DNA of 64,000 nt from Thermococcus sp. Lineage in GTDB: Archaea; Methanobacteriota_B; Thermococci; Thermococcales; Thermococcaceae. Position 1 is the first letter of the stretch, and the number at the start of each line of letters is the position of its first letter. Made by a program: the position numbers and the translations under genes. This document shows, in pieces, positions 1-54,006 of the stretch. A model generated the notes under the pieces. The model was not told the origin of the DNA. It worked only from the letters and a program-made list of their open reading frames with translations, and made no database searches. Location of the stretch: positions 1 through 64,000 of the forward strand of contig NZ_JALXBJ010000034.1 in the NCBI RefSeq assembly GCF_026991495.1, read 5' to 3'.

Positions 1-1
1 C

Positions 2-550: not shown

Positions 551-554
551 TGGA

Positions 555-1349: not shown

Positions 1350-1361
1350 GGGGTGGGAACC

Positions 1362-2180: not shown

Positions 2181-2212
2181 CTCACCGCGTTCATTTTAAA
2201 CCCCACTGATAG

Positions 2213-2227
2213 GCAAAGATTTTTATA
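2213..2227 (+). promoter_or_regulatory. Archaeal BRE/TATA promoter for the ABC-2 exporter genes
   Basis: An A-rich BRE-like stretch (GCAAAG) runs into ATTTTTATA, about 40 nt upstream of the TTG start at 2267. It sits in the only substantial gap of this gene group, so the second permease and the ATPase probably have their own promoter. Confidence 0.55.
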
Positions 2228-2266
2228 CCGAAGGTAATAGTTCGGGATGAACAGGGGGTGTGAACT

Positions 2267-3244
2267 TTGCTGTGGGGCTTCAAGCTGGAGTTGAAACAGG
2301 GTCTCAGGAGCAAGAAGCTGATAGGGACGCTGCTCATAATCCTCTTCCTGTACGTGCCCTTCCTCTACTTCCTGAAGGAAGAGCCAGGCACCTACATGAG
2401 CACCAGGGAGATAATGGCCACGATGTCCAACTTCGTAACCGGGATAGCCATATTCTTCGTCGGCATGCTGGCCATGATAATGGGCGCCACCGCCATCAAC
2501 TCTGAGGTGGAGAAGGGAACCCTGCGGGTGGCGATGAGTAAGCCGATATCGAGGCTCGCCTACATCGGGGGAAAGATGCTCGCGCATGTGACAATCCTCT
2601 TCATAGCCCTTCTCGTCTCGGTGGGCGTGGCGATAGGGGGGATGGCCCTGATCGGGATAGACCTGACCGCCGGCTTCGTCTGGGATATGGTGCTCCTCAA
2701 CGTACTCCTCCTCATAGGCATAACGGGCCTCCTCTTCCTCGGCTACCTTCTCTCGGCGTTCATCAAGTCCCCCATAAACGCCCTCGTCCTGGCCCTCGTG
2801 CTCTTCTTCATCGTATGGAAGATAGCGCCCGCGGTCGTCGAGTACGAGGCCTTCACCCACGCCGCCAGCTACAAGGACTACCAAGGCCACGTACTTCAGG
2901 AGTACAAGACGAAGTACCTCTTCTTCGACCCCTCAAGCCAGATAGAGGTGATGCTGAGCAACATGACGGAGAGGACGTGCTTCGCTATAACCAAGAGGAT
3001 AGAACCAAACGGCGAGGAAAGGGTACTGGAGAAGAAGGAGGTTCCCACCTGTTCGGGAGTGTGGGGCTCGAGTAGCTATCCAGGGGTGGGACAGGTGATC
3101 TATACGTGTAGCTGCCAGGATGTCTACGCGGGCGTTGGGCACTCCCTCAGGTTCCACCTCGTGAACCTGGTGCTCATGATTGGGACGATCATAGCCTACG
3201 CCGGCTTCGCTGTATTCCGGTTCCTCAGGATGGATCTGAGGTGA
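2267..3244 (+). CDS. ABC-2 type transporter permease (NosY-like)
   Basis: A 325-residue protein with about six membrane helices. It has the ABC-2 layout: helix 1 near 19-38, then helices near 53-78, 100-125, 135-160 and 163-182, a roughly 100-residue extracytoplasmic loop, and a last helix near 295-315. The E-V-E-K-G-T-L-R sequence (near 82-89) followed by S-K-P-I-S-R is the coupling-helix region typical of these permeases. The start is TTG, with GGGGGTG 5 nt upstream. The large loop before the last helix carries two Cys pairs and may form disulfides. The stop overlaps the upstream GTG/ATG cluster of the ATPase gene, its obvious partner. Substrate unknown. Confidence 0.82.
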   Translation: MLWGFKLELKQGLRSKKLIGTLLIILFLYVPFLYFLKEEPGTYMSTREIMATMSNFVTGIAIFFVGMLAMIMGATAINSEVEKGTLRVAMSKPISRLAYIGGKMLAHVTILFIALLVSVGVAIGGMALIGIDLTAGFVWDMVLLNVLLLIGITGLLFLGYLLSAFIKSPINALVLALVLFFIVWKIAPAVVEYEAFTHAASYKDYQGHVLQEYKTKYLFFDPSSQIEVMLSNMTERTCFAITKRIEPNGEERVLEKKEVPTCSGVWGSSSYPGVGQVIYTCSCQDVYAGVGHSLRFHLVNLVLMIGTIIAYAGFAVFRFLRMDLR

Positions 3245-3249
3245 TGGCG

Positions 3250-4176
3250 ATGATCGAGATCGAGAACCTGGTCAAGAACTACGGGGACGTCAAAGCCCTC
3301 GACGGCCTCCACCTCACTGTCAAGGAGGGGCAGATATACGGCTTCCTGGGGCCCAACGGGGCCGGAAAGAGCACTACGATACTGAGCACCCTCGGCCTCA
3401 TAAATCCCCAGGCTGGGAGGATAAGCCTCTTCGGCAGGGAAGTCTTCGCGGACGGAAAATACAGGGAGGCCGAACTCGTAAGGGCAAAGAAGAGAATAGG
3501 CTACATGCCCGAGCACGCAACCCTCTGGGACTTTCTAACTCCCATGCAGACCTTAGACATCATCGGGGAGTCTTTTGGGATGTCAAAGGGGGAGAGGGCA
3601 AAGAGGGCAAGGGAGCTCTTGGAACTCCTCAACCTGTGGGACGTCAGGAACAAGAAGGTCGGGAAGTTCTCCAAGGGCATGAAGCAGCGCCTCCTCCTCG
3701 CCCAGGCCCTCGTCCAGAGTCCGGATCTCCTCATCCTCGACGAGCCGATGACGGGCCTCGATCCAAAGGGCATAGCGGAGTTCAAGGACATCATAAGGGA
3801 GCAGAAAAAGGCCGGGAAGACCGTGTTCTTCTCAAGCCATATCTTAGCTCACGTGGAGGAGGTCTGCGATACGGTCGGGGTTATAGTTAGGGGACAACTA
3901 AGGGTGGAGGACAGCATAGAGAACATAAAAAACCAGTTCCTGAAGAAAGCAGGCTACCTTATCCTCCTTGAAACGGACAGGCCAATCAGCTTCGAAAACG
4001 TTGACTGGGAGGTTGAGAGGGTCAGCCCGACGAAGTACAAGATAAAGGCCCCAGACGACGTCAGGCCGGAGATAAACGATGTCGTCTGGAAGCAGGGGGC
4101 CAAGATCCTCCAGCTCATGGTGCGCGTCCCAAGCCTTGAGGAGGTGTTCCTGAGCTTGGTGGAGGAGAAGGGCTAA
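3250..4176 (+). CDS. ABC transporter ATP-binding protein (ABC-2 exporter)
   Basis: A 308-residue ABC ATPase of the CcmA/NosF class that powers the adjacent permease(s). Visible motifs are Walker [10 protein letters not shown], signature F-S-K-G-M-K-Q-R (a variant of LSGGQ), Walker B L-L-I-L-D-E-P and an S-S-H switch. The C-terminal ~80 residues form the usual accessory domain of this class. GTG 3241 and ATG 3244 are also in frame. ATG 3250 is preferred because GAGGTG lies exactly 6 nt upstream. The 3' end overlaps the convergent UbiD-family gene by 4 nt. Confidence 0.88.
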
Positions 4177-5438
4177 GGCCTCGCCCTCTCGAATTTCTCC
4201 CCTCCCTTCAGGGGCTTGGTTGCGTCCACTCCCCATTTGGTTGTGATGCCCCCCTCTCCAGAGGGATCGAGGGAGCTTCCGCGGGCGTTTGGAATAAGGA
4301 CGAGATCCCTGTCCGGCTGGAAGCGCGTCGCCACGGCCCACTCGACCTCGCGGTCGTCGTAGATGTCCACGTCATCGTCGACAACGACCACGTGCTTCAG
4401 ACTCGGATGCCCCGCGAAGGCCGCCAGAATGGCGTTCTTTCCATCGCCTTCGTGCTGCTTGGTAATGCTGACAACTGCGTGGAGCCACATTGCTCCCCCC
4501 TCTGTCAGTCTGACCCCGTGGACCTTTGGAACAACGCGCTTCACGCTCTCGTAGATCTGGGGCTCCTTTGGAAGACCCATGAGCATGTAGTGCTCGTAAG
4601 ACCCTGAGAGGAGGGCGTGGAATATCGGTTCGTCAACGTGGTACATCCTCTCAAAAACCACAACCGGCTGCTTCCTGACGACGTCGTACGTCCCCGTGAT
4701 GTCGACGAAGGGCCCCTCGTCCACGAGCTCAGGGGTTATCCTCGCCTCAAACACGAACTCGCTCTCGACTGGTACTGGAATGCCCCCGAGGTTAACCGTT
4801 CGCAGGGGCTCTCCGAAAGCTACTTCGCTCATGGCCGAGGCTACTTCGAGCTCGCTCACCCCGTAGGCCACGCTCGTGCTTCCTGCGAGGAGAAGGTGAA
4901 CGGGGTTTCCGACGACGATCCTTACGTCGAGCTCTTCGCCTCCCTCCGCTTTCTCCCTCCACATGGAGTAGAGGTGCCTCGGGACGAGTCTCACAGCGGC
5001 CCTCCTCTCATCGAGCACCATCATCCTGTGGAAGGAGACGTTGACGAAGCCGCCGTCCCTCGCGATTATCATCGCCGACGTGAAGTAAGGCCCCCCGTCA
5101 CCGGGGTAGTACTTGGGGACAGGTAGCTCCAAAAGCGAAAAATCGGAGCTCCGGTTTTTGAGGAAGGGCGCAGTCCCCACCGTGGCGAAGGGCCTTGGAT
5201 GGCTCATAGCCCTGGTCATCAGATCGAGCAATCCACCAACGTCAGTTTTCAAGTACTTGGCTATCCTCTTCCGCGTGCTCCATACGTTGCCCGCTACCTC
5301 CCACCCCTCCACGTCCTTGAAGAGAACCGGCCTGTCCCGGTATTTGAGGAGGTACCTCGTTATCTCAAGGTTCTTCTTCACGGGTTTTTCGATGACAACG
5401 ACCTCATCACCGAAGGACTCCAGTATCTCCCTCAGCAT
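4173..5438 (-). CDS. UbiD family (prenylated-FMN) decarboxylase, first paralogue
   Basis: A 421-residue member of the UbiD superfamily, which uses prenylated FMN for reversible decarboxylation of aromatic or unsaturated acids. The central region has the expected D-E-G-P-F-V-D catalytic stretch, and the C terminus has the [11 protein letters not shown] motif. An in-frame ATG 75 nt upstream would add 25 residues with no family resemblance. ATG 5438 is preferred because GGTGGTG lies just upstream. A second UbiD paralogue is at 59472 beside ubiA. No UbiX-type flavin prenyltransferase is visible in this window. The substrate cannot be assigned from sequence alone. Confidence 0.82.
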
Positions 5439-5505: not shown

Positions 5506-6915
5506 ATGTCCACAGTGACGATGGAGGTCCCGGAAGGTTCGACACTGGTCTACATACGGAAGGCCGACCCCAAGGTTTACTTCCTAATCTACGACCTCCT
5601 CACCTACAGGAAGAACTTTGGGAAGTGGGAGAAGCCCGAGAGCCTCTACGACCCCTACTCCAACTCCTTTCCCCTCGGCCTGCTTTACAGGGTGAGGAAG
5701 TTTCTGAAGGAGAAGGGCTACTCCGTTAGGGTTTACGACAGGAGAAAGGTTAGGGCGGAGAGGCTTGAGAGCGAGTGGAACGGGGCCTTCTCCCTGAGGA
5801 GGTACCAGAAGAAGGCCATAAGGAAGGCGCTGAAGGAGAGAATGGGCGTGCTTGCGCTTCCTGTGGGCAGCGGGAAGACGATAGTCGGCCTCAGGATAAT
5901 CCACGAGCTCGGCCTCTCATCCCTCATAGTGGTTCACACCAAGGAGCTCCTCTACCAGTGGGGGGAGAAGGTTGAGGAAACCCTGAACGTCAAGCCGGGG
6001 CTCATCGGGGACAACCAGTGGGAGGAGGGGAAGGTAACGGTCGCAATGATCCAGACGCTCCTGTCGAGGGGACCAGAAAAGCTCCAGCGTGCTTACGGGG
6101 TGGTACTCTTTGACGAGTGCCACAGGACGTCGGCCGCGGAGAAGTTCTACCAGCTCGGTCTGAAGCTCCCCCAGGTCTACCGCTTCGGCCTCTCCGCCAC
6201 TCCCTGGAGGCGCATAAGGGGAGAGGAGCTCAAGATAGAGGCAGTTGTGGGGCCGGTGATATACGAGGTGAAGGCGGAGGATCTGATAAGGGAGGGCTTC
6301 CTCTCAAGGCCCCGCTTTGAGGTCGTGACCTACAGCCCGGCCCTGCCCTCGTTCAGCGAGAGGTACAAGGAGCTCTACGAGGACGTGATAATGAACAACG
6401 AGGAGAGGAACAGGGCCATCGTCAGGAAGGCGGTCGAGCTCGCGAGGAAGGGCCACAGGGTTCTAATAGACGTCAAGAGGCTGGAGCACGGGAAGATCCT
6501 CAGGGAGATGCTCAGGAAAGAGGGCGTAAACGCCGAGTTCCTGAGCTCGAAGAGCCCCAACAGGAGGGAGGTTTTGGAGGCCTTCAAGGAGGGCAAGATA
6601 AACGTCCTGATATCGACCCTCCTAAAGGAGGGCGTTGACATACCCGAGATCTCGGCCATAATACTCGCCGGCGGCGGTAAAAGCGACATCATGACGATAC
6701 AGACCATTGGACGGGCCCTCCGGCCCAAGAAAGGAATGACCGCAGTAATAGTGGACGTAAGGGACGACGACCCGCTTTTGTTCGCCCACTTCATAGAGCG
6801 CCAGAAGGCCCTGAAGCAGTACTACGGAAGGTACTACGACAGGGAGCTTGAGAGAACCTACAGTGAGATAAGCCAGTCGCCGAGCAGGGCCGCGCGAACG
6901 AGGGCCCGAGAATAG
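5506..6915 (+). CDS. DEAD/DEAH-box helicase, XPB/SSL2-like superfamily 2
   Basis: A 469-residue SF2 helicase. Domain 1 has the Q-like R-R-Y-Q motif (near 100), Walker A L-P-V-G-S-G-K-T (near 118-125), Walker B D-E-C-H (DECH rather than DEVH) and S-A-T (motif III). Domain 2 has the [12 protein letters not shown] motif and Q-T-I-G-R-A-L-R (motif VI). This order is that of COG1061/XPB-type DNA helicases involved in repair or transcription. ATG 5521 is an alternative start. The last 58 nt are shared with the convergent truA gene, so both proteins have C termini encoded on opposite strands of the same DNA. Confidence 0.85.
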
Positions 6916-7661
6916 CGTGAAAAGAGGCCCTCTTTAACCTTCCTAAGGGCTTTTTCGCTGACCTCAAACTGGATGCCGTACTCTATCCTCCACAGGACGA
7001 GGTTCTCTGGTGGAGCGGGTGGGATCTTTCTCCCGTATTTCCCCGAGAGCATTTCATCGACCTCGGAGGGCTTTAGGAGGCCGAGGCCGCAGAACCTTAT
7101 CGCGCTGACGATCCGCCTGACCATCTCCCATAGGAAGCTCCTACCGGTGACCTCGATCACGTAGTAGCCCCTCCTCTGCATTAGCTCGATCGAGTTTACC
7201 GTTCTCACCGGATTCCGGCCGGGTTCGAGCCTCGCAAAGGCCGAGAAATCGTGGGTTCCCTCAAATAGCCTGGCGCATTCAAGCATGGTTCCGGCTTCCA
7301 GCCCCTCATCCACGAGGTAGTAGCGGTAGGTCTTCGATCCAGCGGCGAAGCGCGGGTGAAAGTCATCCGGTACTTGGGCCCTACCGATAATCCAGACGTC
7401 CCTGAGGTGGTGGTTCAGCACCTCTGGTGTTGCGAGACCCTCCTTCCCCTTGAGGGGATCGAAGGCGACGACGTTAAAAAAGGCCGAGACTCCTCTATCC
7501 GTCCTTGAGGCACCCTTAAATTTCGAGGAAGCGGGGTCCGCTATTATCCCGAGCTTTCTGAGGGCACGGATCAGCTCCCCCTCAACGGTTCTCACTCCTG
7601 GCTGCCTCTGGAAACCGTAGAAGGCCGTTCCGTCGTAGGCTATCCTGAGGGCGAGCCTCAT
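6858..7661 (-). CDS. truA: tRNA pseudouridine synthase A
   Basis: TruA isomerises uridines 38-40 of the tRNA anticodon arm to pseudouridine. The 267-residue protein has the family hallmark A-S-R-T-D-R-G-V-S-A, with catalytic Asp55, and the Y-R-Y-Y motif near 115. An open frame continues 65 codons upstream, but those codons cross the tRNA-Pro gene. The start is therefore ATG 7661, preceded by GGTGATAAG. It lies just downstream of tRNA-Pro on the same strand, and the tRNA promoter may drive both. The 3' end overlaps the convergent helicase gene by 58 nt. Confidence 0.9.
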   Translation of the reverse strand: MRLALRIAYDGTAFYGFQRQPGVRTVEGELIRALRKLGIIADPASSKFKGASRTDRGVSAFFNVVAFDPLKGKEGLATPEVLNHHLRDVWIIGRAQVPDDFHPRFAAGSKTYRYYLVDEGLEAGTMLECARLFEGTHDFSAFARLEPGRNPVRTVNSIELMQRRGYYVIEVTGRSFLWEMVRRIVSAIRFCGLGLLKPSEVDEMLSGKYGRKIPPAPPENLVLWRIEYGIQFEVSEKALRKVKEGLFSRYSRALVRAALLGDWLISL

Positions 7662-7678
7662 CTTATCACCCGAGAACC

Positions 7679-7756
7679 TGGTGGGGCCGCCGGGATTTGA
7701 ACCCGGGTCACGGGCTCCCAAAGCCCGCAGGATGGGCCAAGCTACCCCACGGCCCC
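7679..7756 (-). tRNA. tRNA-Pro (anticodon TGG), CCA encoded
   Basis: Reading the minus strand, the acceptor stem GGGGCCG pairs with CGGCCCC at the 3' end. The anticodon arm is CGGGC-TTTGGGA-GCCCG with TGG at positions 34-36, and the T arm carries the GGTTCAAATCC sequence. The discriminator A is followed by CCA in the DNA (7681-7679), so the tail is gene-encoded. No intron is visible. Confidence 0.96.
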
Positions 7757-7781
7757 ATGCCCGGCATTTAGGGGCTCTGCA

Positions 7782-7797
7782 AAGCTTATAAAGTTTG
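7782..7797 (-). promoter_or_regulatory. TATA box for tRNA-Pro (and probably bidirectional)
   Basis: On the minus strand CAAACTTTATAAGCTT lies about 33 nt upstream of the mature tRNA 5' end, the usual archaeal distance. The same element reads CTTATAAAG on the plus strand, about 40 nt before the mannosyltransferase start, and may serve both directions. Confidence 0.65.
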
Positions 7798-7831
7798 CGG
7801 GTTTTACTTTCTTGGCCAGGGAGGGAAGAGA

Positions 7832-8917
7832 ATGCCCGCGGAAGGAGAGAAGCCAAAGGTCTCAGTCATAATCCCCACCTACAACGAGAGGGAAAACTTA
7901 GGGGAGCTCTTCAGGAGGATCTCCGAGGCTCTAAGCGGGGCCGGCTACGGCTTTGAAATCATAGTGGTTGACGACGACTCACCCGATAGAACCTGGGAGT
8001 ACGCAATGGAGCTCGGGATGGAGTACCCCGTGAAGGTCATCAGGAGGAGAAACGAGAAGGGCCTCTCCTCCGCTGTGATCAGGGGCTTTAAAGAGGCCTC
8101 CGGGGAAGTTCTCGTCGTTATGGACGCGGATCTGCAGCACCCCCCCGAGAAGATACCCGAGCTGGTGGAGGCAATAGAGAATGGCGCCGACGTGGCCATA
8201 GCGAGCAGGTACGTACCCGGGGGGGAGGTTAAGAACTGGTACTGGTACAGGAAGCTCATCTCGAAGGGGGCCATAATGCTCGGGCGGCTGGCCCTTCCGA
8301 AGATAAGGAGCGTGAAGGATCCTATGAGCGGCTTCTTCGCCCTGAGGCGGGAGGTCGTCGAGGGGGTTGAGTTGAACCCCATAGGCTTCAAGATCCTCAT
8401 GGAGATCCTCGTGAAGGCCAGATACAAGAAGGTCGTCGAGGTGCCCTTCACCTTCGGTCTTAGGAGGGCAGGGGAGAGCAAGCTCGGCGGGAAGACAATG
8501 GTGGCCTATCTGAAGCATGTCTACCGCCTCATGCACTGGTCTGGAGAGCTTGACAGGCTGATCAAGTTCAGCATCGTGGGAACCTCGGGAGTGTTCGTGA
8601 ACGAAGGCTTCCTGTGGTTGTTCGTCTCGTGGCTCGGGATGAGCAAGTACATAGCCAACATCCCCGCGACCGAGCTTGCCATCCTCAACAACTTCACCTG
8701 GAATGACCTTTGGACCTTCAGGGATCTTAGAAAATCCCCCCTGTGGAGGAGGCTCTTTAGCTTCCACGTCGCTGCCCTAACCGGGGCTTTCGTTCAGTGG
8801 GTAATATACGCCCCCCTCGTTTACCTCGGCGTAAACTACCTCCTCGCCAACCTTGTTGGCATAGGTGCGTCTTTTATCGTCCGCTTCCTCTTCAACAGAA
8901 ACGTGACGTGGGGCTGA
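7832..8917 (+). CDS. Dolichol-phosphate mannose synthase with C-terminal GtrA domain
   Basis: A 361-residue membrane glycosyltransferase that transfers mannose from GDP-mannose to a polyprenyl phosphate, supplying N-glycan and glycolipid assembly. The N-terminal GT-A domain (about 8-235) shows V-S-V-I-I-P-T-Y-N-E, the metal-binding D-A-D at 98-100 followed by L-Q-H-P-P, and S-G-F-F-A near 170. Four membrane segments from about 240 to 355 form a GtrA-like anchor. This is the same architecture as the structurally studied Pyrococcus furiosus enzyme. The start ATG has GGGAGGG about 6 nt upstream. Confidence 0.9.
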   Translation: MPAEGEKPKVSVIIPTYNERENLGELFRRISEALSGAGYGFEIIVVDDDSPDRTWEYAMELGMEYPVKVIRRRNEKGLSSAVIRGFKEASGEVLVVMDADLQHPPEKIPELVEAIENGADVAIASRYVPGGEVKNWYWYRKLISKGAIMLGRLALPKIRSVKDPMSGFFALRREVVEGVELNPIGFKILMEILVKARYKKVVEVPFTFGLRRAGESKLGGKTMVAYLKHVYRLMHWSGELDRLIKFSIVGTSGVFVNEGFLWLFVSWLGMSKYIANIPATELAILNNFTWNDLWTFRDLRKSPLWRRLFSFHVAALTGAFVQWVIYAPLVYLGVNYLLANLVGIGASFIVRFLFNRNVTWG

Positions 8918-18240: not shown

Positions 18241-18250
18241 AAAAAGAAGG
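18241..18250 (-). terminator. T-run terminator for the secreted papain-like gene
   Basis: On the minus strand CTTCTTTTTT directly follows the stop of the gene at 18253-18840. It lies within 12 nt of the convergent gene's stop. Confidence 0.5.
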
Positions 18251-18252
18251 GA

Positions 18253-18840
18253 TCAGGCCGAGTCGTAGTATATCACGTAGGTGTCGTCATCGTCGTATAT
18301 CTCCTGCGGGGCGACGCCCCATAGGTACTTCCAGCTGAAACCGGGGTGAGCGTCGATGTCAGGCCCTCCAGCGGCCATGTAGGAGGCCCAGACGAGCTCT
18401 GAGCAGTAGTACTTGTCCCCATAGACGTGCTTGGTCCACCACTCCCAGTCGTACGGCTTCCCGAGCTGCTGGAGAGCGAAGCTGATGGCACCTTCCCTAA
18501 CGGCATCGGTGGTTCTAACGCGGAGAACCGCGACGGCATCGTACCTCTTGAGGAAGTCGCTCAGGTAGACGAGCCTTACCTCACTCGGGTTGTCCCACGC
18601 CTCGACAACGACCCAGTCCTTGGCGTTTGAGTCGTAGTAGACTATCATCCCCGTGTGCGTCCAGTAGCCGGGTATGAAGAGGTCGCTTATTGGGTTGTGC
18701 CCTATGACTATGTCCCCGGGCTGTATCCCAGTTGGGTATGGGTGGTAGTAGCTGTTGCCTCCAAGGCTAAAGGCTCCCGCCGGGGTCACGAGGACGGCAA
18801 AAACGGTCAAAACCGCCAGTATTCCGAGCACCTTCTTCAT
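18253..18840 (-). CDS. Secreted YiiX-like permuted papain-fold protein
   Basis: A 195-residue protein with a cleavable signal peptide: a K-K start, a hydrophobic core at 5-20, and probable cleavage after A-G-A at 23. The mature part resembles the YiiX/NlpC-P60-like permuted papain fold. G-D-I-V-I-G-H leads in, the catalytic His is probably in W-T-H-T-G (His62), and the Cys is in Y-C-S-E-L-V (Cys146). Such enzymes act as amidases or peptidases on cell-surface polymers or lipids; the archaeal target is unknown. The start has GGAGGTG upstream. Confidence 0.82.
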   Translation of the reverse strand: MKKVLGILAVLTVFAVLVTPAGAFSLGGNSYYHPYPTGIQPGDIVIGHNPISDLFIPGYWTHTGMIVYYDSNAKDWVVVEAWDNPSEVRLVYLSDFLKRYDAVAVLRVRTTDAVREGAISFALQQLGKPYDWEWWTKHVYGDKYYCSELVWASYMAAGGPDIDAHPGFSWKYLWGVAPQEIYDDDDTYVIYYDSA

Positions 18841-18883
18841 TTAAGGCACCTCCGAGAGTTGTTAGATATATATGGGCACGGGA

Positions 18884-18899
18884 GATTAATAAAGTTTTT
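18884..18899 (-). promoter_or_regulatory. TATA-like element upstream of the secreted papain-like gene
   Basis: On the minus strand AAAACTTTATTAATC lies about 50 nt upstream of the ATG. A TATATAT stretch nearer the gene (around 18866-18872) is a second possibility. Confidence 0.4.
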
Positions 18900-18963
18900 T
18901 GTTTCTCACTGTGAACCTTAGATGTACTTTTGGGTACTTTGCTGCACATAGCGTTATGGGTGA

Positions 18964-18980
18964 AAAAAGGTTAAAAAAGT
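18964..18980 (+). promoter_or_regulatory. TATA/BRE promoter for the molybdopterin oxidoreductase
   Basis: AAAAAAGGTTAAAAAAG lies about 30-40 nt upstream of the ATG at 19008. The start is preceded by CTTAGGG. Confidence 0.45.
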
Positions 18981-19007
18981 TTGAGGGCACCACCTTAGGG
19001 TCGAAAT

Positions 19008-20915
19008 ATGTTCACCGTGTGCATGCGCGACTGCTACGACACCTGCTCAATCATAAGCGAGTTTAAAGGTGGAGAGCTCAGGGTTAGGGGGAATCCCCAG
19101 CACCCGGTAACTGCTGGCTTCCTCTGTCCGAAGGGGGCGCTTTTGCCGAGGTGGTTTCATTCAAAGGACAGGCTGAAAAGCCCACTCTTGAGAACCGGTG
19201 AGAGGGGGAGCGGCGAGTTCAGGGAAGTAAGCTGGGAAGAGGCAGTAAAGCTCGTTGCGGATAAGCTGAGAGAGACGATCGAGCAGCACGGAAGCGAGAG
19301 CGTCCTCGTCTACCAATACGCCGGCGACAGGGGGGTTGTGAACTACGCCTTCCCGCTGAGGCTCTTCCACCACCTCAACGCGGCGATGCTCGACTACGGC
19401 ATCTGCGACAGGGCCGGACAGGAGGCCCTAAAGGACGTCTACGGCACTGCAGTTGGCCTCGACCCCGAGGAGCTGGGAAACCAGAGGCTAATCGTCTACT
19501 GGGGACTAAACGCTTTTTGGACTAACCTTCACGGCTTCATGCTCGCGAGGAGAAACAACCTCGAAGTCTGGACGGTTGACGTCGTCAGAACAGAGACGGC
19601 CAAGAGGAGCGGCAGGTTCTTCCAGATAAGGCCCGGCACCGACGTTCTACTTGCCCTCGGTGTTGCGAAGGTCATCATAGAGGAGGACATCTACGATAGA
19701 GCCTTTGTCCGCGAGAACGTATACGGTTTTGAAGAATTCAAGAATTATGTAAAAAGGTTATCGCTTGATTATGTAAGCCAGGAGACGGGCTTGAGCATTG
19801 AGAAGATCGAGGAGTTCGCCAGAGAATACGTCGAAAAGAGGGGCGTAATCCACATCGGCTACGGCTTCCAGCGCTCTTTGGCAGGAGGTGAAGCCGTCAG
19901 GGCGATAGCCATCCTGCCTGCTTTGGTCGGCCACCGTTTCGGCTTCATCTACGACATGAAGACTATAGACAAGAGCTACGCCGAGGGCGCTTTCCTGAGG
20001 AAGAAGCCAGCAAAGGTGATACCCCAGATGAAGCTGGCAGAGTACATCGAGCGCGGGGAGATAAGGTTCCTCTACATATACAACTCTAATCCGCTCGCGA
20101 GCCTGCCGAACCAGAGCAGACTGAGAAAAGCCCTGAAAGAGAGTGACGTCTTCGTAGTTACGCACGACATCTTTTTGACCGATACTGCACTCTACTCGGA
20201 TGTCGTTCTGCCTGCAAATACTTTCTTCGAGCGCTTGGACATAGCGGACAGCTACTACCACCGCTACGTGGCTTTAAACGAGCCTGTGGCGAAGCTCTAC
20301 GGAAAGAGCAACAGCGAGGTGACGAGGTTGCTCGCGAGCGCCCTGGGAATAGACAACCCATATCTCTACGAGAGCGACGAGGAAGTGACAAGGAAAGTCC
20401 TCGAAGTCAACGGTCTGAGTTGGGATGAGCTTAAAGAGAGAGGCTTCGTCAAAGTGCCAGAAAAGCGGAGAAGGTGGGAGACACCGAGCGGGAAGATAGA
20501 GTTCTACTCCCAGAGGGCCGTCGAAAGGGGCCTGAGTCCCTTCCCAGAGTATCGCCGCTTTGAGGGGGGATACCCGCTCAGGCTCCTCACTCCCACCCAC
20601 AGGATGACGATAACGAGCCAGTACCACAACACGTACGGAATGATAGACCCTAACCTCTACATCAACCCCGCGGACGCTGAAGAGAGGGGCATCCAAGACG
20701 GCGAGGCGGTAGAGGTCTTCAACGACTACGGAAGGATCCAGACAAGGGCAAAGCTGAGCGAAGACGTTCCTGAGGGTGTCGTTCTCCTCTACAAGGCCTT
20801 CTGGGTTAGCTTACTGGGCTGGAACGCCAACTTCCTCACGGCGGACAAGACCGTTGAGGGCTACGGGAACGGCTCAGCGTACCACTCAACGTGGGTGGAG
20901 GTCAGGAGGGCCTGA
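19008..20915 (+). CDS. Molybdopterin (Mo/W-bisPGD) oxidoreductase with N-terminal 4Fe-4S
   Basis: A 635-residue member of the DMSO-reductase/formate-dehydrogenase superfamily. Cys5, Cys9, Cys13 and Cys40 (C-P-K-G) form the N-terminal 4Fe-4S site. The catalytic domain has the usual order, and Y-G-I-C-D (Cys133) falls where a protein ligand to the metal is expected. The C-terminal pterin-binding domain has T-P-T-H-R-M-T and W-N-A-N-F-L-T. No Tat signal is seen, so it is probably cytoplasmic. No electron-transfer subunit lies beside it, so neither substrate nor partner can be assigned. Monocistronic. Confidence 0.85.
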   Translation: MFTVCMRDCYDTCSIISEFKGGELRVRGNPQHPVTAGFLCPKGALLPRWFHSKDRLKSPLLRTGERGSGEFREVSWEEAVKLVADKLRETIEQHGSESVLVYQYAGDRGVVNYAFPLRLFHHLNAAMLDYGICDRAGQEALKDVYGTAVGLDPEELGNQRLIVYWGLNAFWTNLHGFMLARRNNLEVWTVDVVRTETAKRSGRFFQIRPGTDVLLALGVAKVIIEEDIYDRAFVRENVYGFEEFKNYVKRLSLDYVSQETGLSIEKIEEFAREYVEKRGVIHIGYGFQRSLAGGEAVRAIAILPALVGHRFGFIYDMKTIDKSYAEGAFLRKKPAKVIPQMKLAEYIERGEIRFLYIYNSNPLASLPNQSRLRKALKESDVFVVTHDIFLTDTALYSDVVLPANTFFERLDIADSYYHRYVALNEPVAKLYGKSNSEVTRLLASALGIDNPYLYESDEEVTRKVLEVNGLSWDELKERGFVKVPEKRRRWETPSGKIEFYSQRAVERGLSPFPEYRRFEGGYPLRLLTPTHRMTITSQYHNTYGMIDPNLYINPADAEERGIQDGEAVEVFNDYGRIQTRAKLSEDVPEGVVLLYKAFWVSLLGWNANFLTADKTVEGYGNGSAYHSTWVEVRRA

Positions 20916-20969
20916 GGTTCTCTAACCTCCCAAACTCTCTGAATATCATCGCCCACTGGGAGAGAAAAA

Positions 20970-21245
20970 TCAGGAGAGCTCCTTCCCCATCGTTTCCTCT
21001 CCAAGCGCAAGAACGTCCAGCGCTCCCGCTATCGCGACGACCGCTATGAGCAAAACGGCCAGCGCCACCCCGCTGAGCTCCATTATCTTTCCGGCCAGTA
21101 TCGGCGCTATGCCGCCGCCAATCCTCGCCATCGTCCCGGCCCAGCCCGTTCCAGTCCCCCTGACCTCAGTCGGGTAGAGCTCCGGGGTGTAGGCGTATAT
21201 CGCCCCCCATGCACCGAGGTTGAAGAAGCTGAAGGCTATTGCACT
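20970..21245 (-). pseudogene. C-terminal remnant of an MFS (sugar-porter-like) transporter
   Basis: About 91 codons resemble only the last three or four helices of an MFS transporter: A-F-S-F-F-N-L-G-A-W-G, then Y-T-P-E-L-Y-P-T-E-V-R-G-T-G and the closing helices. A full gene would be about 400-450 codons. Upstream of about 21245 (minus-strand sense) resemblance stops and the DNA becomes AT-rich; the open frame runs on to 21335 but encodes unrelated residues. The missing N-terminal part is not found on the far side of the island, so the gene was truncated, probably by the event that placed the island here. Confidence 0.78.
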
Positions 21246-21415
21246 CGTCGAGGATTGATGTGACTGTATGGTTGTTTTAGTTAGGGTATAGTTCTCACTC
21301 CTGTGGTGTATTTTTTCAAATTGAATACTATCCAAAATTTTATTACATTACTTCTCCCCTATCTTTTCTAAGGAGTCTTCTGAAAGCTTACTTCTTTAAA
21401 AATTATTAACTCTAT

Positions 21416-21435
21416 GTTGTAAACTATAAGTTTAC
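21416..21435. promoter_or_regulatory. Palindromic operator candidate with a GTTnnnAAC site
   Basis: A perfect inverted repeat GTAAACT-ATA-AGTTTAC occupies 21419-21435. Overlapping it, GTTGTAAAC (21416-21424) matches the SurR half-site GTTnnnAAC. After the 5-nt spacer expected in the extended SurR consensus comes GTTTACGAA, a partial second half-site. It lies immediately upstream of the likely BRE/TATA of the island operon. Confidence 0.5.
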
Positions 21436-21452
21436 GAAAATCATAAATATTC
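21436..21452 (+). promoter_or_regulatory. Putative BRE/TATA of the RiPP-like operon
   Basis: GAAAATCATAAATATTC sits directly after the palindrome. With the usual archaeal spacing, transcription would begin near 21470-21475. That leaves a roughly 25-nt leader with its Shine-Dalgarno before the ATG at 21500, and argues against the upstream ATG at 21470. Confidence 0.45.
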
Positions 21453-21499
21453 ATTAAATCAGTCGAATCATGTATGATCATAAGATTGAGGGGGTATTA

Positions 21500-21670
21500 A
21501 TGGAAGGGTATATCCCTCCCGTCGGAGAAGACCTCGGACATGAACTTGGCAGTGTTGTAGTTGAAGTCGGTGGTCCGGGGCCAATATTCACTCAGATTAT
21601 GCCAGTTCTTTTCGTAGTTATTTGGTCCTTACCGTTAAAAGACAAAACATCAGGAGGTGAAAACGCATGA
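21500..21670 (+). CDS. Putative RiPP precursor peptide 1
   Basis: A 56-residue peptide without Cys. Residues 4-17 read Y-I-P-P-V-G-E-D-L-G-x3-G, shared with the next peptide. A V-G-G at 23-25 is followed by a hydrophobic stretch (about 29-46, including Trp42) and a polar tail. ATG 21500 is chosen because GAGGGGG lies 5 nt upstream; ATG 21470 lacks such a site. The TGA overlaps the ATG of peptide 2 (ATGA). The neighbouring radical SAM, PqqD-like and exporter genes suggest a modified, exported peptide. Alternatively it could be a small membrane protein unrelated to RiPPs. I do not recognise a named family. Confidence 0.65.
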   Translation: MEGYIPPVGEDLGHELGSVVVEVGGPGPIFTQIMPVLFVVIWSLPLKDKTSGGENA

Positions 21671-21903
21671 GCTACGTGCCCCCTGTTGGTGGTGATGTTG
21701 GTATTAATTCTGGAATTACTGAGAAAATAGCAATAAGTCATGCATATGTGTTGAATATTGGGGGTACAGTCACAGCAGTAGCTGCAGTATGGGTTATTGC
21801 CGGAATGTACATTGCAATTGTTTGGGGAATTTTTGGACCAATAGCAAAGTGGCTTTTACAGGGTAATGTCTCCACAATTAAAGATTTGAGAATACAGCGA
21901 TAG
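21667..21903 (+). CDS. Putative RiPP precursor peptide 2
   Basis: A 78-residue Cys-free peptide beginning M-S-Y-V-P-P-V-G-G-D-V-G-x3-G, the same N-terminal motif as peptide 1. An I-G-G at 31-33 precedes a strongly hydrophobic segment (about 35-64) with Trp42, Trp53 and Trp62, followed by a basic tail. A strong GGAGGTGA lies 6 nt upstream. The motif-then-GG-then-hydrophobic order is the same in both peptides although the C-terminal parts are otherwise unalike, as expected for a leader plus variable core. The mature part could insert into membranes, as many bacteriocins do; this is inference. Confidence 0.68.
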   Translation: MSYVPPVGGDVGINSGITEKIAISHAYVLNIGGTVTAVAAVWVIAGMYIAIVWGIFGPIAKWLLQGNVSTIKDLRIQR

Positions 21904-21941
21904 TATCTTTGACTAAAAACTACAGATGGAGGATGAAGATA

Positions 21942-23126
21942 ATGAGAGTAAGTGTTGACAATTTGTCAAATGAGCTTCAAACGTTTTATTATTCTTTTTC
22001 GGCTATTTTCGACAGATTTATTCGAATGTCCAATAGTGTACCTGTACCTTACAGGGCCGGAGAATTAAAAGAGCTTCCGGAGATATTTAGTGAGCTTAGA
22101 AAGCTTTATCGCAAGTATCACATCTGGCCAGAAGATCTGAAAGGTCCTGTTTCTGCAGCAATCGATATTACGTATCGATGTAACTATAATTGTCCCTACT
22201 GTTATGTTGGTTGTTTCTCAAATGCAACTCGCAGAGAGCTCAGTAAAGAAGAAATATTTGATGTCATAGATGAACTCGCAAAATTAGATGTTTTAGTCTT
22301 ATGTTTATGTGGAGGCGAGCCAACACTTCGTAAGGATTTGTTTGATATTATACAGTATGCTAACGGAAGGGGGATTGATGTTAACATGGTAACTAACGGC
22401 TCATTAATATCTGATAACTTTGCTTCAAAACTTGCTGAAAGTGGTATTGCTGCGGTTCAAGTATCCTTGGATGGCTCTAAACCTGAGATTATGGAAAAAC
22501 TAAGACCTAAAGGTTCATATGATAGGGCTATTAATGCAATAAAGAATCTAACCGGATACAGTATTCCGACAATTGTAAGTTTCTGTTCAACAAGATTGAA
22601 CATAAGTGACTTCCCAAACATCGTTGAGTTAGGTGAGAAACTTGGTGTTTTATCTATTCGCACAATGTATTTTGTTCCTGAAACCTATGGACATATAAAG
22701 TTAATACCAACCGATGATCAGTACAGAAAACTAATAACATGGATATCTGAACACAGTCATGAGTACTCTACCAGAATCGAATTTGGGGATCCAACTGAGC
22801 ATATTATAATTGGGCCATATACTTCATTAATCTCTCTTTCAATAAGTGCAGAAGGATACATACTTCCAACGCCCTATCTAAGTCTGGCATATGGTCACGT
22901 TTCAGATGGGATAGAAAAACTATGGAAAGAAGGGTTAGAATATGTGTGGAGGACTAATCCAGTGCTTTTGTCAATATCCTCCTATCTAAAAACTGAAAAG
23001 GATTTTCTCAGGTTAAAATCTCTGTTTATGACGAGGATAGATTCGGATTACTTAAATCTTCTACGCTTAGACGAGGAGGATTTGTTTAATCTAGCAAGAA
23101 AGATTAAGGAGGTGCTATCAATATGA
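21942..23126 (+). CDS. Radical SAM peptide-modifying enzyme with Cys-less SPASM-like tail
   Basis: About 394 residues. An ~80-residue N-terminal extension precedes the radical SAM core, where C-N-Y-N-C-P-Y-C (Cys80, 84, 87) binds the 4Fe-4S cluster and C-G-G-E-P (123-127) is the SAM-binding GGEP motif. The C-terminal part follows a SPASM/twitch-like pattern (S-A-E-G-Y-I-L-P-T-P, then G-H-V-S-D-G-I-E-K-L-W) but has no Cys after about residue 215, so auxiliary clusters are unlikely. GGAGG at 21928 sits 9 nt before ATG 21942; TTG 21909 and ATG 21933 are alternatives. The stop overlaps the next ATG. Probable role: modification of the two upstream peptides. Confidence 0.82.
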   Translation: MRVSVDNLSNELQTFYYSFSAIFDRFIRMSNSVPVPYRAGELKELPEIFSELRKLYRKYHIWPEDLKGPVSAAIDITYRCNYNCPYCYVGCFSNATRRELSKEEIFDVIDELAKLDVLVLCLCGGEPTLRKDLFDIIQYANGRGIDVNMVTNGSLISDNFASKLAESGIAAVQVSLDGSKPEIMEKLRPKGSYDRAINAIKNLTGYSIPTIVSFCSTRLNISDFPNIVELGEKLGVLSIRTMYFVPETYGHIKLIPTDDQYRKLITWISEHSHEYSTRIEFGDPTEHIIIGPYTSLISLSISAEGYILPTPYLSLAYGHVSDGIEKLWKEGLEYVWRTNPVLLSISSYLKTEKDFLRLKSLFMTRIDSDYLNLLRLDEEDLFNLARKIKEVLSI

Positions 23127-23542
23127 TAACTAGTAACTTAATAGTCAATATTAATGATCATGTTAAAAATTTGTTACATGAAGTAAGCTCCGATAAATAC
23201 ACAATTAACCTACCCAAGAACTCAAAATTTAGGTTTGAGCATGATGGAAGAGTTATTGGATTCAATCCAATTACCTGGAAAATCACAGTGATGAATCCCA
23301 CTATGGGGGAGATTATAAGAATACTTCAGAAAAGGGGGAGTGTAAAATTTTCAGACCTTGTCATGCATCTGCACTTTATATATCCCGAAATCCCAAGGAA
23401 AATAATAAAAAATGATCTGAAGAGCGCCATACTATGGTTGTTTACAAATGAGTTCATATATCTACAAAAAGGGAATAAGAATGTTCACTTTATAGACATA
23501 ATACAGAAGGCTGCTCAAAATATTAATCATAATGGAGTGTGA
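23123..23542 (+). CDS. PqqD-like RiPP recognition element protein
   Basis: A 139-residue protein whose middle part (about 38-118) has the PqqD/RRE layout: a short strand region around G-F-N-P-I-T-W, then M-N-P-T-M-G-E-I-I-R-I-L, then a winged-helix pattern ending W-L-F-T-N-E-F-I-Y-L. PqqD-type domains bind leader peptides and deliver them to the radical SAM partner. The ATG overlaps the preceding TGA by 4 nt. Family assignment is by pattern only and should be checked by profile search. Confidence 0.68.
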   Translation: MITSNLIVNINDHVKNLLHEVSSDKYTINLPKNSKFRFEHDGRVIGFNPITWKITVMNPTMGEIIRILQKRGSVKFSDLVMHLHFIYPEIPRKIIKNDLKSAILWLFTNEFIYLQKGNKNVHFIDIIQKAAQNINHNGV

Positions 23543-23982
23543 GAGCGGTGAGGGGTAGTCCCCTTTTACTGTCCCTACTTTTCTCTTTAGGGATAGTTGG
23601 ATTGGTCCTTGTGATCATAAAATATTACTTCGATGCCCACACCCCTCAAGCAGTGATTATTAAACACGAAAACAATCAGACGATTCTTGCAATAAAAACG
23701 AAAAGAAAAAACATTTCAATTAAACTTAAAGATTTTCAAATTAAAGATTATCGAGATGTGCTTGTCTGGAGACTTTGGGGACTAGAATTTGGCCGATATA
23801 GACTTGGCAGATATAAAGGCAAATATGGCAAGGTGTTTTCATATGCTATTTCAGATTCTGGCTTGCTTATAGATGACATAGATGGAAAAAGATACTACCT
23901 AGCTTTTGACAATATCCACGAAGTTATAGACGCTATACTAGACAATAGCATAAAAGAGAAAGTCATAGAGGTGAGAAAATAA
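23539..23982 (+). CDS. Membrane-anchored protein with PH-like domain (function unknown)
   Basis: A 147-residue protein with one N-terminal membrane helix (about 6-29). The soluble part is beta-rich, and its pattern (W-R-L-W-G-L-E-F-G, then alternating strands, then L-A-F-D-N-I-H-E-V-I) recalls bacterial PH-like domains. It starts at GTG 23539, overlapping the previous stop (GTGA), and ends overlapping the next ATG (TAATG). Its place between the recognition protein and the exporter suggests a role in maturation, immunity or export. No protease motif is visible. Confidence 0.65.
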   Translation: MRAVRGSPLLLSLLFSLGIVGLVLVIIKYYFDAHTPQAVIIKHENNQTILAIKTKRKNISIKLKDFQIKDYRDVLVWRLWGLEFGRYRLGRYKGKYGKVFSYAISDSGLLIDDIDGKRYYLAFDNIHEVIDAILDNSIKEKVIEVRK

Positions 23983-24785
23983 TGAGAATTAAGCCGATCG
24001 TTGTAAAAGAATTTTGGCAGTATTTTTCGAACAAGAACTTGATTGTGCTCTCGACAAACGCTTTGGTCATACTTGTCATCGGTCTATTGCTGATTATGAC
24101 CGGACCGCAGTATCTAACCCCATATTCAAAACAAGTGGCTATAAATCAAATATCGGAGAATCCTTCAGTATTCGGACTGTCCAAGGAAGATGTAGCAAGA
24201 ATGGGTGAGAGTGCAATAACCTTTGCCTCATTGGTATCACAATTACCGGTTATAATAATATTGGCCTCAGCCTTAAGTTCTTACGTCTCGATGGTGGCGT
24301 CACTATTTCATGAGAAGTCAAATAAAACAATGGAGATCCTTTTTTCGTCTCCTCTCTCTGAATCTGAGATTCTTTTGGGAAAACTGTTGTCTGGATTGCT
24401 CTTTAGCCTACTTTCGTGGGGTTCTAATTTTGTGGCCGTTCTCGGCCTTTTGCAGTACCTACATTTAAAGACTCTGGGAAGCATGTGGATCCCAACGAAA
24501 TACTTTCTTGTTATTGCGGTATTTGTCCCCTTCTCAATGATCTTTCTTTCTATTAGTGTCGGGTTAATAGTTAGTATAAAAATAAAAAGCCCCGAGCTAG
24601 TGAACGTCATAAGCTTCCCTTTAGTTTTAGTTCCAATCGTGATATCCTTCATCTCTTACAGAATGAGACTGGAAGGTGTTCTTCAAGTTTATATGCTCCT
24701 AGGGACTGTCTCAATAGTGGTATCACTTATAACTGCAATGTTTGGCAAGCGTGTTATCAACCGCCTAGTATTCATTACAAATTAA
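23982..24785 (+). CDS. ABC-2 permease of the RiPP-like cluster
   Basis: A 267-residue permease with about six membrane helices. It shows the ABC-2 pattern: helix 1 near 20-40, a long extracytoplasmic loop, then the E-K-S-N-K-T-M-E-I-L-F-S-S-P-L-S coupling region near 109-124. The first codon overlaps the preceding stop. It is the presumed exporter, with the next gene, of the modified peptides. Confidence 0.82.
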   Translation: MRIKPIVVKEFWQYFSNKNLIVLSTNALVILVIGLLLIMTGPQYLTPYSKQVAINQISENPSVFGLSKEDVARMGESAITFASLVSQLPVIIILASALSSYVSMVASLFHEKSNKTMEILFSSPLSESEILLGKLLSGLLFSLLSWGSNFVAVLGLLQYLHLKTLGSMWIPTKYFLVIAVFVPFSMIFLSISVGLIVSIKIKSPELVNVISFPLVLVPIVISFISYRMRLEGVLQVYMLLGTVSIVVSLITAMFGKRVINRLVFITN

Positions 24786-24797
24786 AGGGGTGATTCC

Positions 24798-25709
24798 ATG
24801 CTTGAGGTTGAAAATATTAGTGCAGGTTATGGTAATGGCGATGTGATAAAAAATCTAAGTTTTATCGCAATTAAAGGGGAAATTTATGTATTGCTGGGAG
24901 CCAATGGTGCAGGTAAAACCACGACATTTAGAGCAATCACCGGTATTTTACCCCTTTCTCAGGGCAGAGTAGTGGTTGATGGAATCGATCTTTGGGTGGA
25001 ACCTGAAAAAGCTAAAAGAAAGATCGGGTATCTGCCAGAGGGGGAGCGAGTTTATCCGGATTTAACTGTCTACAAGAATCTGCGATTTTTCGCCAGAATT
25101 TATGATGTTGAAGAAGAGCGGATTAATGAACTTCTAAAAGAATTTGGACTTGAAAAATATCGAGATACAAAAGCGGGATATTTGAGCAGGGGGCTCAGGA
25201 AACGGCTGGCTCTAACCAGGGCATTGCTTCACGATCCAGATATTTTGGTTTTAGACGAGCCCTTCAGTAACTTGGACATTCCCACAGTTTTAAGCTTGAG
25301 GGATAAGATCTTTGAAATGCTGGAAGAAGGCAAGACAATTTTATTCTCAACGCACATTCTAAGTGAGCTCCAGAACTTTGAGGGGACAAGATGCAGGGTT
25401 GGAATAATGAAAGATGGAAAACTCATTTTGGAGGAAAAACTGGAGAACCTGCTCAACAGAATCAGCAACATTGAGGTACTTTTTAAAGTCGACAAAAAAC
25501 AACGGGCAAAAGAACTACTGGAGAAGTTCGGATATCCTGTTGAGGTGGAAAGCACCGGAGTTGCTGTGAGGGTTTCTAATTATAATGAGGAGACTCCTGC
25601 AATAATGAAGATACTCTTAACACAAGGGGTCAATGTATACGAAGTAAAACCAAAAGAACCTCCAATAGAGAAGGTGTTTACAGAAATGACAAAAAGCAAT
25701 CATGTATGA
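24798..25709 (+). CDS. ABC transporter ATP-binding protein of the RiPP-like cluster
   Basis: A 303-residue ATPase. It has Walker A G-A-N-G-A-G-K-T-T, a signature reading L-S-R-G-L-R-K-R (Gly to Arg at the second variable position), Walker B I-L-V-L-D-E-P, and S-T-H. The ~90 C-terminal residues are the CcmA/NatA-type accessory region. It lacks the peptidase (C39) domain that some bacteriocin exporters use to clip GG leaders, so any leader cleavage needs another enzyme. It is preceded by GGGGTGATT and followed after about 10 nt by a short T-run (GGTTTTTCTGG) that may terminate the operon. Confidence 0.87.
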   Translation: MLEVENISAGYGNGDVIKNLSFIAIKGEIYVLLGANGAGKTTTFRAITGILPLSQGRVVVDGIDLWVEPEKAKRKIGYLPEGERVYPDLTVYKNLRFFARIYDVEEERINELLKEFGLEKYRDTKAGYLSRGLRKRLALTRALLHDPDILVLDEPFSNLDIPTVLSLRDKIFEMLEEGKTILFSTHILSELQNFEGTRCRVGIMKDGKLILEEKLENLLNRISNIEVLFKVDKKQRAKELLEKFGYPVEVESTGVAVRVSNYNEETPAIMKILLTQGVNVYEVKPKEPPIEKVFTEMTKSNHV

Positions 25710-25832
25710 CCAAAAGGTTTTTCTGGTTCGGGAAACAGTGTTGATAACTGAAGCTGGAAACCAAGCATTAAAGTGGTATCCTTCAAAACATTAAATCCTC
25801 AGCGGTTGCATCTTTCCACCCGGGGTGGTCAA

Positions 25833-53957: not shown

Positions 53958-54006
53958 ATTCGGTAGGCCAAGGTTTATTCTGGTAACCTAAGAGACGGTG
54001 GTCGAA

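Follow-up and report, generated by a model that had tools for sequence, protein, structure and literature searches.

An AT-rich seven-gene cassette of Thermococcus with a candidate radical SAM peptide epimerase

Gene content of the island

The first 64,000 nucleotides of Thermococcus sp. contig NZ_JALXBJ010000034.1 (assembly GCF_026991495.1; the whole stretch analysed, hereafter the window) contain an AT-rich island of seven genes that is almost certainly a real cassette, recurring beyond chance, for a ribosomally synthesised and post-translationally modified peptide (RiPP). The island has a GC content of 38.2% against ~55% in its flanks, and encodes two small peptides (P1 and P2), a radical S-adenosylmethionine (SAM) enzyme, a RiPP recognition element (RRE), a membrane-anchored protein, and an ATP-binding cassette (ABC) transporter. 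Based on the list of open reading frames (ORFs) and inspection of start sites, the seven ORFs (21500-25709) are co-directional on the + strand, and adjacent ones touch or overlap:

21248..25784, + strand: AT-rich island, delimited by nucleotide comparison with six relatives and by GC contrast
21500..21670, + strand: P1, 56-aa precursor-like peptide with the leader motif MEGYIPPVGEDLG, without Cys and without an Asn ladder (ORF and start inspection; orthologues; substitution rates)
21667..21903, + strand: P2, 78-aa precursor peptide, leader MSYVPPVGGDVG followed by a hydrophobic core (ORF and start inspection; cores of relatives)
21942..23126, + strand: radical SAM enzyme, 394 aa, of a CxCGGE/GDPxxH/[ST]PY[LIM] subfamily, with a degenerate SPASM region lacking Cys (Pfam; motif survey; AlphaFold2 model)
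23123..23542, + strand: PqqD-like RRE, 139 aa (predicted model; PDB fold search; Pfam PqqD in relatives)
23539..23982, + strand: membrane-anchored PH-like protein, 147 aa, with an N-terminal hydrophobic helix and a bPH_5-like domain (bPH_5 match)
23982..24785, + strand: ABC-2 type permease, 267 aa (Pfam ABC2_membrane_3, 9.6e-10)
24798..25709, + strand: ABC ATPase, 303 aa, GldA/DrrA-like and related to lantibiotic-protection ATPases (Pfam ABC_tran, 1.2e-30)

P1 starts at the ATG at 21500, preceded by GAGGGGGT, and P2, which overlaps P1 by 4 nt, is preceded by AGGAGGTGA; both ribosome-binding sites are good. The radical SAM gene starts at the ATG at 21942, with GGAGG upstream. Two other starts were dismissed on the position of the Shine-Dalgarno sequence: a less likely 66-aa version of P1 starting at 21470, and a TTG at 21909 that merely gives the radical SAM gene its longest ORF. 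An earlier reading of the letters (the sequence-only reading) had described an AT-rich stretch with seven touching genes in one direction, radical SAM and ABC motifs, and two peptides devoid of cysteine. The ORFs, their order and their overlaps are borne out, the motifs are backed by the Pfam matches (Radical_SAM, E 4.7e-29; ABC_tran as above), and the ORF translations of both P1 and P2 contain no cysteine; the start codons of P1 and of the radical SAM gene are the part of the earlier gene models that had to be corrected.

Precursor peptides and their recognition element

P1 and P2 have the attributes of RiPP precursors, being short genes with a conserved leader and a variable core that lie beside a modifying enzyme. 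They have an N-terminal start in common (Y-x-P-P-V-G-x-D-x-G), and the leader pattern of the cassette in both peptides is Y-x-P-P-x-G-x-[DE]-x-G. Orthologues of P1 are 91, 80 and 73% identical, with pairwise ratios of nonsynonymous to synonymous substitution rates (dN/dS) of ~0.11 and 0.19; for P2 the pairwise ratios are 0.21 against G080, 0.24 against the decaying copy of G021 and 0.69 against G093. From these ratios we regard P1 and P2 as real coding genes, both translated and both under constraint, which is weaker on P2. The sequence-only reading had allowed that the peptides might be fragments of a larger gene, which is contradicted by these ratios and by the recurrence of the loci. No Pfam or NCBIfam match to a nitrile-hydratase-like or Nif11 leader was found in P1, P2 or the other peptides tested; a weak Pfam match of P2 to VMA21 was taken as chance.

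The identification of the 23123 protein as PqqD-like, proposed from the sequence at the outset, is upheld by both profile and fold. Pfam PqqD matches three of seven family members (best E 3.7e-4), with the window's own member below detection; a weak Pfam match of the protein to DUF3116 was taken as chance. Searching the PDB by sequence with the PqqD-like profile returned nothing meaningful, and a fold search was therefore used. The best solved-structure matches of the AlphaFold2 model (predicted local distance difference test score, pLDDT, 88.5) are 5v1v and 5v1u, complexes of TbiB1 with a leader peptide from a lasso peptide pathway (template modelling score 0.78-0.83 by target length, root-mean-square deviation 1.7-2.2 Å, probability 1.00, E 5e-3 to 1.5e-2), and the predicted structure has the winged-helix fold of leader-binding RREs.

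Lasso leaders carry the motif YxxPxLxxxG (PMC6856326); among the sequences recognised by RREs, YxxP has been characterised, and binding tests have demonstrated WxxP for StsC (PMC12710340). The Thermococcus motif YxPPxG contains the YxxP sequence bound by such RREs, with the Tyr, the Pro and the last Gly at the same spacing as in the lasso motif, and this explains the shared N-terminal motif that the sequence-only reading did not recognise. Across the family, [YFW]xxP lies near the start of 14 of 15 peptides, whereas 5000 shuffles gave a mean of 2.9 and at most 9.

The radical SAM subfamily

The radical SAM enzyme has an ordinary core, and the CxxxCxxC motif of the superfamily is present in all members examined. 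Among the models listed, no NCBIfam cut-off is reached; the best score, to mycofactocin maturase, is far under its cut-off. The nearest solved relatives are SkfB and PqqE by sequence, and SuiB, SkfB and others including PqqE by fold (AlphaFold2 model, pLDDT 85.6). The outline of the SPASM region is kept, and the position of its Cys motif reads PTPYL or PSPYI. The cysteines of a SPASM/twitch auxiliary cluster are missing: members have 1-4 C-terminal Cys, whereas almost every other full-length radical SAM protein in the motif survey has ~4-18. The enzyme is thus predicted to carry only the SAM-binding cluster.

Additional features are constant from Thermococcus to Firmicutes, namely CxCGGE, [GA]DPxxH and PY[LIMV], with single members missing one or other. 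The CxCGGE motif places two extra near-invariant cysteines next to the SAM-binding GGE, where other radical SAM proteins of the survey have a non-Cys residue; the first Cys is conserved in the clade and the second in nearly all members. In the tree, the Thermococcales enzymes and that of contig L041 form one group, adjacent to a Bathyarchaeota enzyme. At E 1e-60, relatives were retrieved from 4/397, 2/398, 2/298, 3/106 and 6/399 genomes in five group searches, whose groups overlap and some of whose matches lack the signature; G706 and G398, retrieved by the profile, were rejected because the signature is missing. Judged by these motifs and scores, the enzyme represents a rare subfamily without a name or a curated model. 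A second, unrelated radical SAM gene lies at 53998-55212 of the window (27% identity over the core).

Asparagine at every sixth residue

More distant members of the enzyme family occur in Bathyarchaeota, Firmicutes and Collinsella, and mostly adjoin genes for short hydrophobic peptides with a [YFW]xxP leader. Many of the family peptides contain ladders of Asn at six-residue spacing, for example N22/28/34/40 (G093), N21/27/33 (G021), N44/50/56/62/68 (G1026) and N48/54/60 (G456). Over the 14 in-sample peptides, there are 16 Asn pairs at lag 6 against 2.6 expected, a count that none of 5000 shuffles reached; apart from 12, which is a harmonic, no other lag departs from chance. The excess is present both in Thermococcales-type peptides (9 vs. 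1.5 expected) and in the remaining ones (7 vs. 1.1).

Because the pattern was first noticed by eye, in some of the in-sample peptides, the prediction and an ORF rule were fixed before six further loci were read. These yielded 10 lag-6 Asn pairs against 1.8 expected (ORF length limits 38-125 in the script, 40-120 in the pre-written rule), carried by G1448 (N48/54/60/66/72) and G1262; the output also took in a stretch from the already-seen G277 and gained no ladder from it. Neither of two controls has a significant lag-6 excess: the cassette permeases have one such pair (1.8 expected) and an excess at lag 7 instead, and small ORFs next to radical SAM genes from outside the family have two (0.7 expected, P 0.14), in ORFs that look spurious or ordinary. 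In the Thermococcales P2 cores, the ladder extends to polar residues generally (19 vs. 7.5 expected). An Asn-X5-Asn (NX5N) core is hence found family-wide as a lag-6 excess, with the window P2 showing a Ser24-Asn30-Thr36 version at six-residue spacing.

Other genes were seen near the bacterial peptides and enzymes. Three Firmicutes loci (L044, L167 and L180) encode ~450-aa B12-type radical SAM-like proteins near similar hydrophobic peptides, possibly methylating enzymes by analogy with polytheonamide clusters. Judged by eye, bacterial members also often occur with GNAT-like proteins, some of which appear to be PqqD-like fusions (L045, L048, L169 and L129).

Transporter and PH-like protein

The bPH_5 match of the PH-like protein (E 3.9e-4) is under the curated cut-off, and three of seven family members match. 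The ABC ATPase scores 153 bits against TIGR03740, below its cut-off. A similar pair, yydIJ of the epipeptide operon, was proposed to confer immunity and found to matter little (PMC7026026); the ABC transporter of the island may export the product or protect the producer. No leader protease was identified among the seven cassette genes with Pfam or NCBIfam.

Recurrence and mobility

The close radical SAM family was found in few of 94 Thermococcaceae genomes, and only within the cassette or its decayed remnants; this answers the check that the sequence-only reading had proposed, namely co-occurrence of the radical SAM gene with the peptides across Thermococcales, and goes against its refuting case of a gene widespread without them. 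Of 16 genomes, 8 were matched strongly by the profile of the 23123 family, all of them genomes with the radical SAM gene. All seven genes recur in order in G080 and G077 (radical SAM enzyme 83% identical), and with more divergent members in G093, G067 and the L041 contig. With its genes found again in this order in other Thermococcaceae, the cassette is not a chance arrangement; together with the RRE fold and the leader motif, this sustains the earlier proposal that the seven genes form one RiPP pathway.

Occurrence is sporadic, with intact or decaying copies, and insertion sites differ between most genomes. In G018, P2 is broken and P1 was not found; in G021, the radical SAM and ATPase genes are frameshifted; G016 and G029 hold cassette remnants, and G081 a piece at a contig end. 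In comparison with G093, P1 and the P2 leader have 88% DNA identity and the ATPase gene 80%, against 65% in the interior (radical SAM region), which suggests that the middle has been exchanged by recombination between conserved ends (also in L031/L034 compared with window positions 21500-25709). On this distribution, the island appears as a horizontally moving RiPP gene cluster.

Contig L041 (positions 1-4423) is a 4.4-kb contig binned as Thermotogota that carries an intact cassette, the enzyme of which groups with the Thermococcus enzymes; its placement may reflect inter-domain transfer or misbinning, two explanations that are indistinguishable here. No relative was found in viral contigs, and Collinsella contributes the only subfamily member among the matches listed in plasmid searches, which also gave a radical SAM match on an E. 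coli plasmid. Beside the decayed cassette of G016, contig L037 (reverse strand; oriented 6161-8051) has a second RiPP-like set of two genes, one for an Ala/Val-rich peptide of 76 aa and the other for a radical SAM protein of 550 aa whose Cys are SPASM-like.

Nucleotide homology of the left flank to six relatives stops at 21247 (21257 in one relative), and that of the right flank restarts at 25778-25785. Between the matching flanks, ~1.2 kb of the relatives' sequence is missing from the window (the 5' part of a major facilitator superfamily (MFS) transporter gene and a spacer; more in one relative), and we therefore conclude that the island arrived together with a deletion. The truncated gene is represented by:

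20970..21335, - strand: C-terminal MFS transporter remnant, truncated by the island (89-92% identity to relatives up to 21247)

Genes that are adjacent in five of the six compared relatives are separated here by a gene for a molybdopterin oxidoreductase (19008-20915, within 18241-20969); thus, the locus bordering the island on its left is an insertion point too.

Proposed pathway and alternatives

NX5N is a named core motif of the polytheonamides (PMC9259500), in which one radical SAM enzyme introduces 18 D-residues and the product has a β-helical, pore-forming structure (PMC9505594). Proteusin epimerases combine an RRE with the radical SAM cluster as their sole cluster, and depend on a critical conserved Cys (PMC8326336). 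We regard epimerization as the likely reaction of the Thermococcus enzyme and favour it because it covers together the absence of SPASM Cys, the RRE partner, the extra Cys near GGE, and the NX5N substrates. The fuller proposal, that a radical SAM epimerase makes a β-helical, membrane-active peptide, we hold to be moderately probable. Epimerization goes beyond the sequence-only reading, which had not proposed it.

In the proposed pathway, the RRE would bind the leader via YxxP and present P2, and probably P1 too, to the radical SAM enzyme. The latter would remove C-alpha hydrogens and return hydrogen to the opposite face, the candidate donor being one of the CxCGGE cysteines, such that a set of Val, Ala and Asn residues would become D-residues. 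The product would fold as a β-helix with roughly six residues to each turn, in which Asn (or Ser, Thr, Gln, Asp or Glu) side chains at every sixth residue would form a stabilising ladder, and would act on membranes. The ABC transporter and the PH-like protein would export the product or protect the producer, and a leader peptidase would be encoded elsewhere, or else the leader would be retained.

Several observations weigh against epimerization to a β-helical product. The window P2 has no Asn-Asn pair at lag 6, its polar ladder being at most a remnant, and P1 has no ladder, so that modification of P1 is unexplained. Ladders are also missing from the peptides of Thermoanaerobacterium, Blautia, the Bathyarchaeota locus, G1588 and G1572; the Collinsella peptide has neither ladder nor leader motif; and no peptide was found by the ORF rule at G277 or G1361. 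The in-sample peptides were partly picked by eye, and homologous peptides are not independent of one another. For the enzyme, scores against TIGR04103, which we take to be a PoyD-like model, are 72 bits in the window and 66-94 bits in other members against a cut-off of 725; there is no likeness to EpeE beyond the common core; and the sister branch L182/L167 keeps only the first Cys of CxCGGE, the second not being conserved. The fold match of the RRE is modest by E-value (5e-3).

The alternative that survives best is a RiPP pathway whose radical SAM enzyme crosslinks or otherwise functionalises C-H bonds (giving, for instance, a cyclophane, an Asn/Tyr/Trp linkage or a decarboxylation), with the six-residue spacing marking crosslink sites. 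The nearest solved relatives (SkfB and PqqE by sequence; SuiB, SkfB and PqqE by fold) are crosslinking enzymes, the best NCBIfam score, although far below cut-off, is to mycofactocin maturase, and the cores contain aromatic residues. However, the SPASM/auxiliary-cluster cysteines that crosslinking and decarboxylating relatives carry are absent here, Asn ladders occur with few aromatic residues nearby (G093 and G1448 peptides), and the Thermococcus peptides lack Cys for thioethers; we consider such a reaction unlikely. Less probable still, and doubtful in our view, is a product that serves as a signalling peptide or cofactor-like molecule and is not membrane-active, the ABC transporter being a plain exporter. 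PqqD/radical SAM pairs do also yield redox cofactors, and the locus encodes no immunity protein from a known family; against this stand the long hydrophobic NX5N cores and the sporadic, decaying and laterally moving occurrence which, with a variable core and a conserved leader, fits conflict peptides better than a cofactor. A reading outside RiPPs, with P1 and P2 as small membrane proteins belonging to an ABC transporter locus and a different substrate for the radical SAM enzyme, would suit their hydrophobic, membrane-spanning composition and the absence of a matching family model, but is highly improbable given a leader motif matched to the RRE fold, a leader conserved beside a variable core, and a lag-6 Asn excess seen again both in other phyla and in the further loci.

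Building on the epimerase reading, a broader proposition is that these loci constitute a new RiPP class of archaea and bacteria, in which peptides with a YxxP leader and an NX5N core would become D-amino-acid β-helical pores through a radical SAM epimerase subfamily (CxCGGE/GDPxxH) distinct from PoyD and EpeE, the branch in hyperthermophilic archaea being mobile as a set of seven genes and swapping its interior between conserved ends; we regard this as evenly balanced. No description of the family was found in openly accessible papers, which is not proof of absence; an archaeal RiPP paper deals mainly with Euryarchaeota lanthipeptides and leaves Thermococci unmentioned (PMC10105419). If correct, the proposal would provide a compact route to D-amino-acid β-helical peptides in Archaea, from a hyperthermophile source and by an unnamed radical SAM family. 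Pore peptides of the polytheonamide kind, which are known from sponge symbionts and a few other bacteria, would be more widespread, with related enzymes in gut and thermophilic bacteria, and lasso-type recognition (YxxP with a PqqD-fold RRE) would extend to an archaeal radical SAM pathway. The heat-stable enzymes and defined peptide pair would make a good model for radical epimerases and for peptide conflict among Thermococcales.

Comparison with known systems

Sactipeptide or ranthipeptide membership was rejected, as neither P1 nor P2 has core Cys for thioethers. The PQQ and mycofactocin pathways (PqqE/PqqD and MftC/MftB) have in common with the cassette the logic of a radical SAM enzyme and a PqqD-like chaperone; unlike them, the cassette has a hydrophobic core and an ABC transporter, lacks SPASM Cys and misses the family cut-offs. 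Lasso clusters with a discrete RRE (TbiB1 and FusE) resemble it in the RRE fold and the YxxP element of the leader (YxxPxLxxxG), whereas the cassette has a radical SAM enzyme and, by Pfam and NCBIfam, neither the Asn-synthetase-like lasso cyclase nor the leader protease; lasso membership was accordingly rejected.

Epipeptide loci (epeXEPAB/yydFGHIJ of B. subtilis) are alike in being compact operons for a peptide, a radical SAM epimerase and a two-gene ABC transporter. However, EpeE binds a second [4Fe-4S] cluster and is partnered by a membrane protease, whereas the seven Thermococcus genes include neither the second-cluster Cys nor a protease, and do include an RRE; membership was rejected on the first two grounds. 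Polytheonamide-type proteusins (PoyA/PoyD; aeronamides) correspond in the hydrophobic NX5N core, in the pairing of an RRE with a radical SAM enzyme that has only the SAM cluster, and in an extra conserved Cys. They differ in that the Thermococcus leader is short with YxxP rather than nitrile-hydratase-like, the RRE is a separate protein, the host is archaeal, and the cassette has no methyltransferase or dehydratase; strict proteusin membership was rejected on the absence of a nitrile-hydratase-like or Nif11 leader and on the TIGR04103 score. Although it departs from testable defining features of both families, the cassette would work like the proteusin and epipeptide systems.

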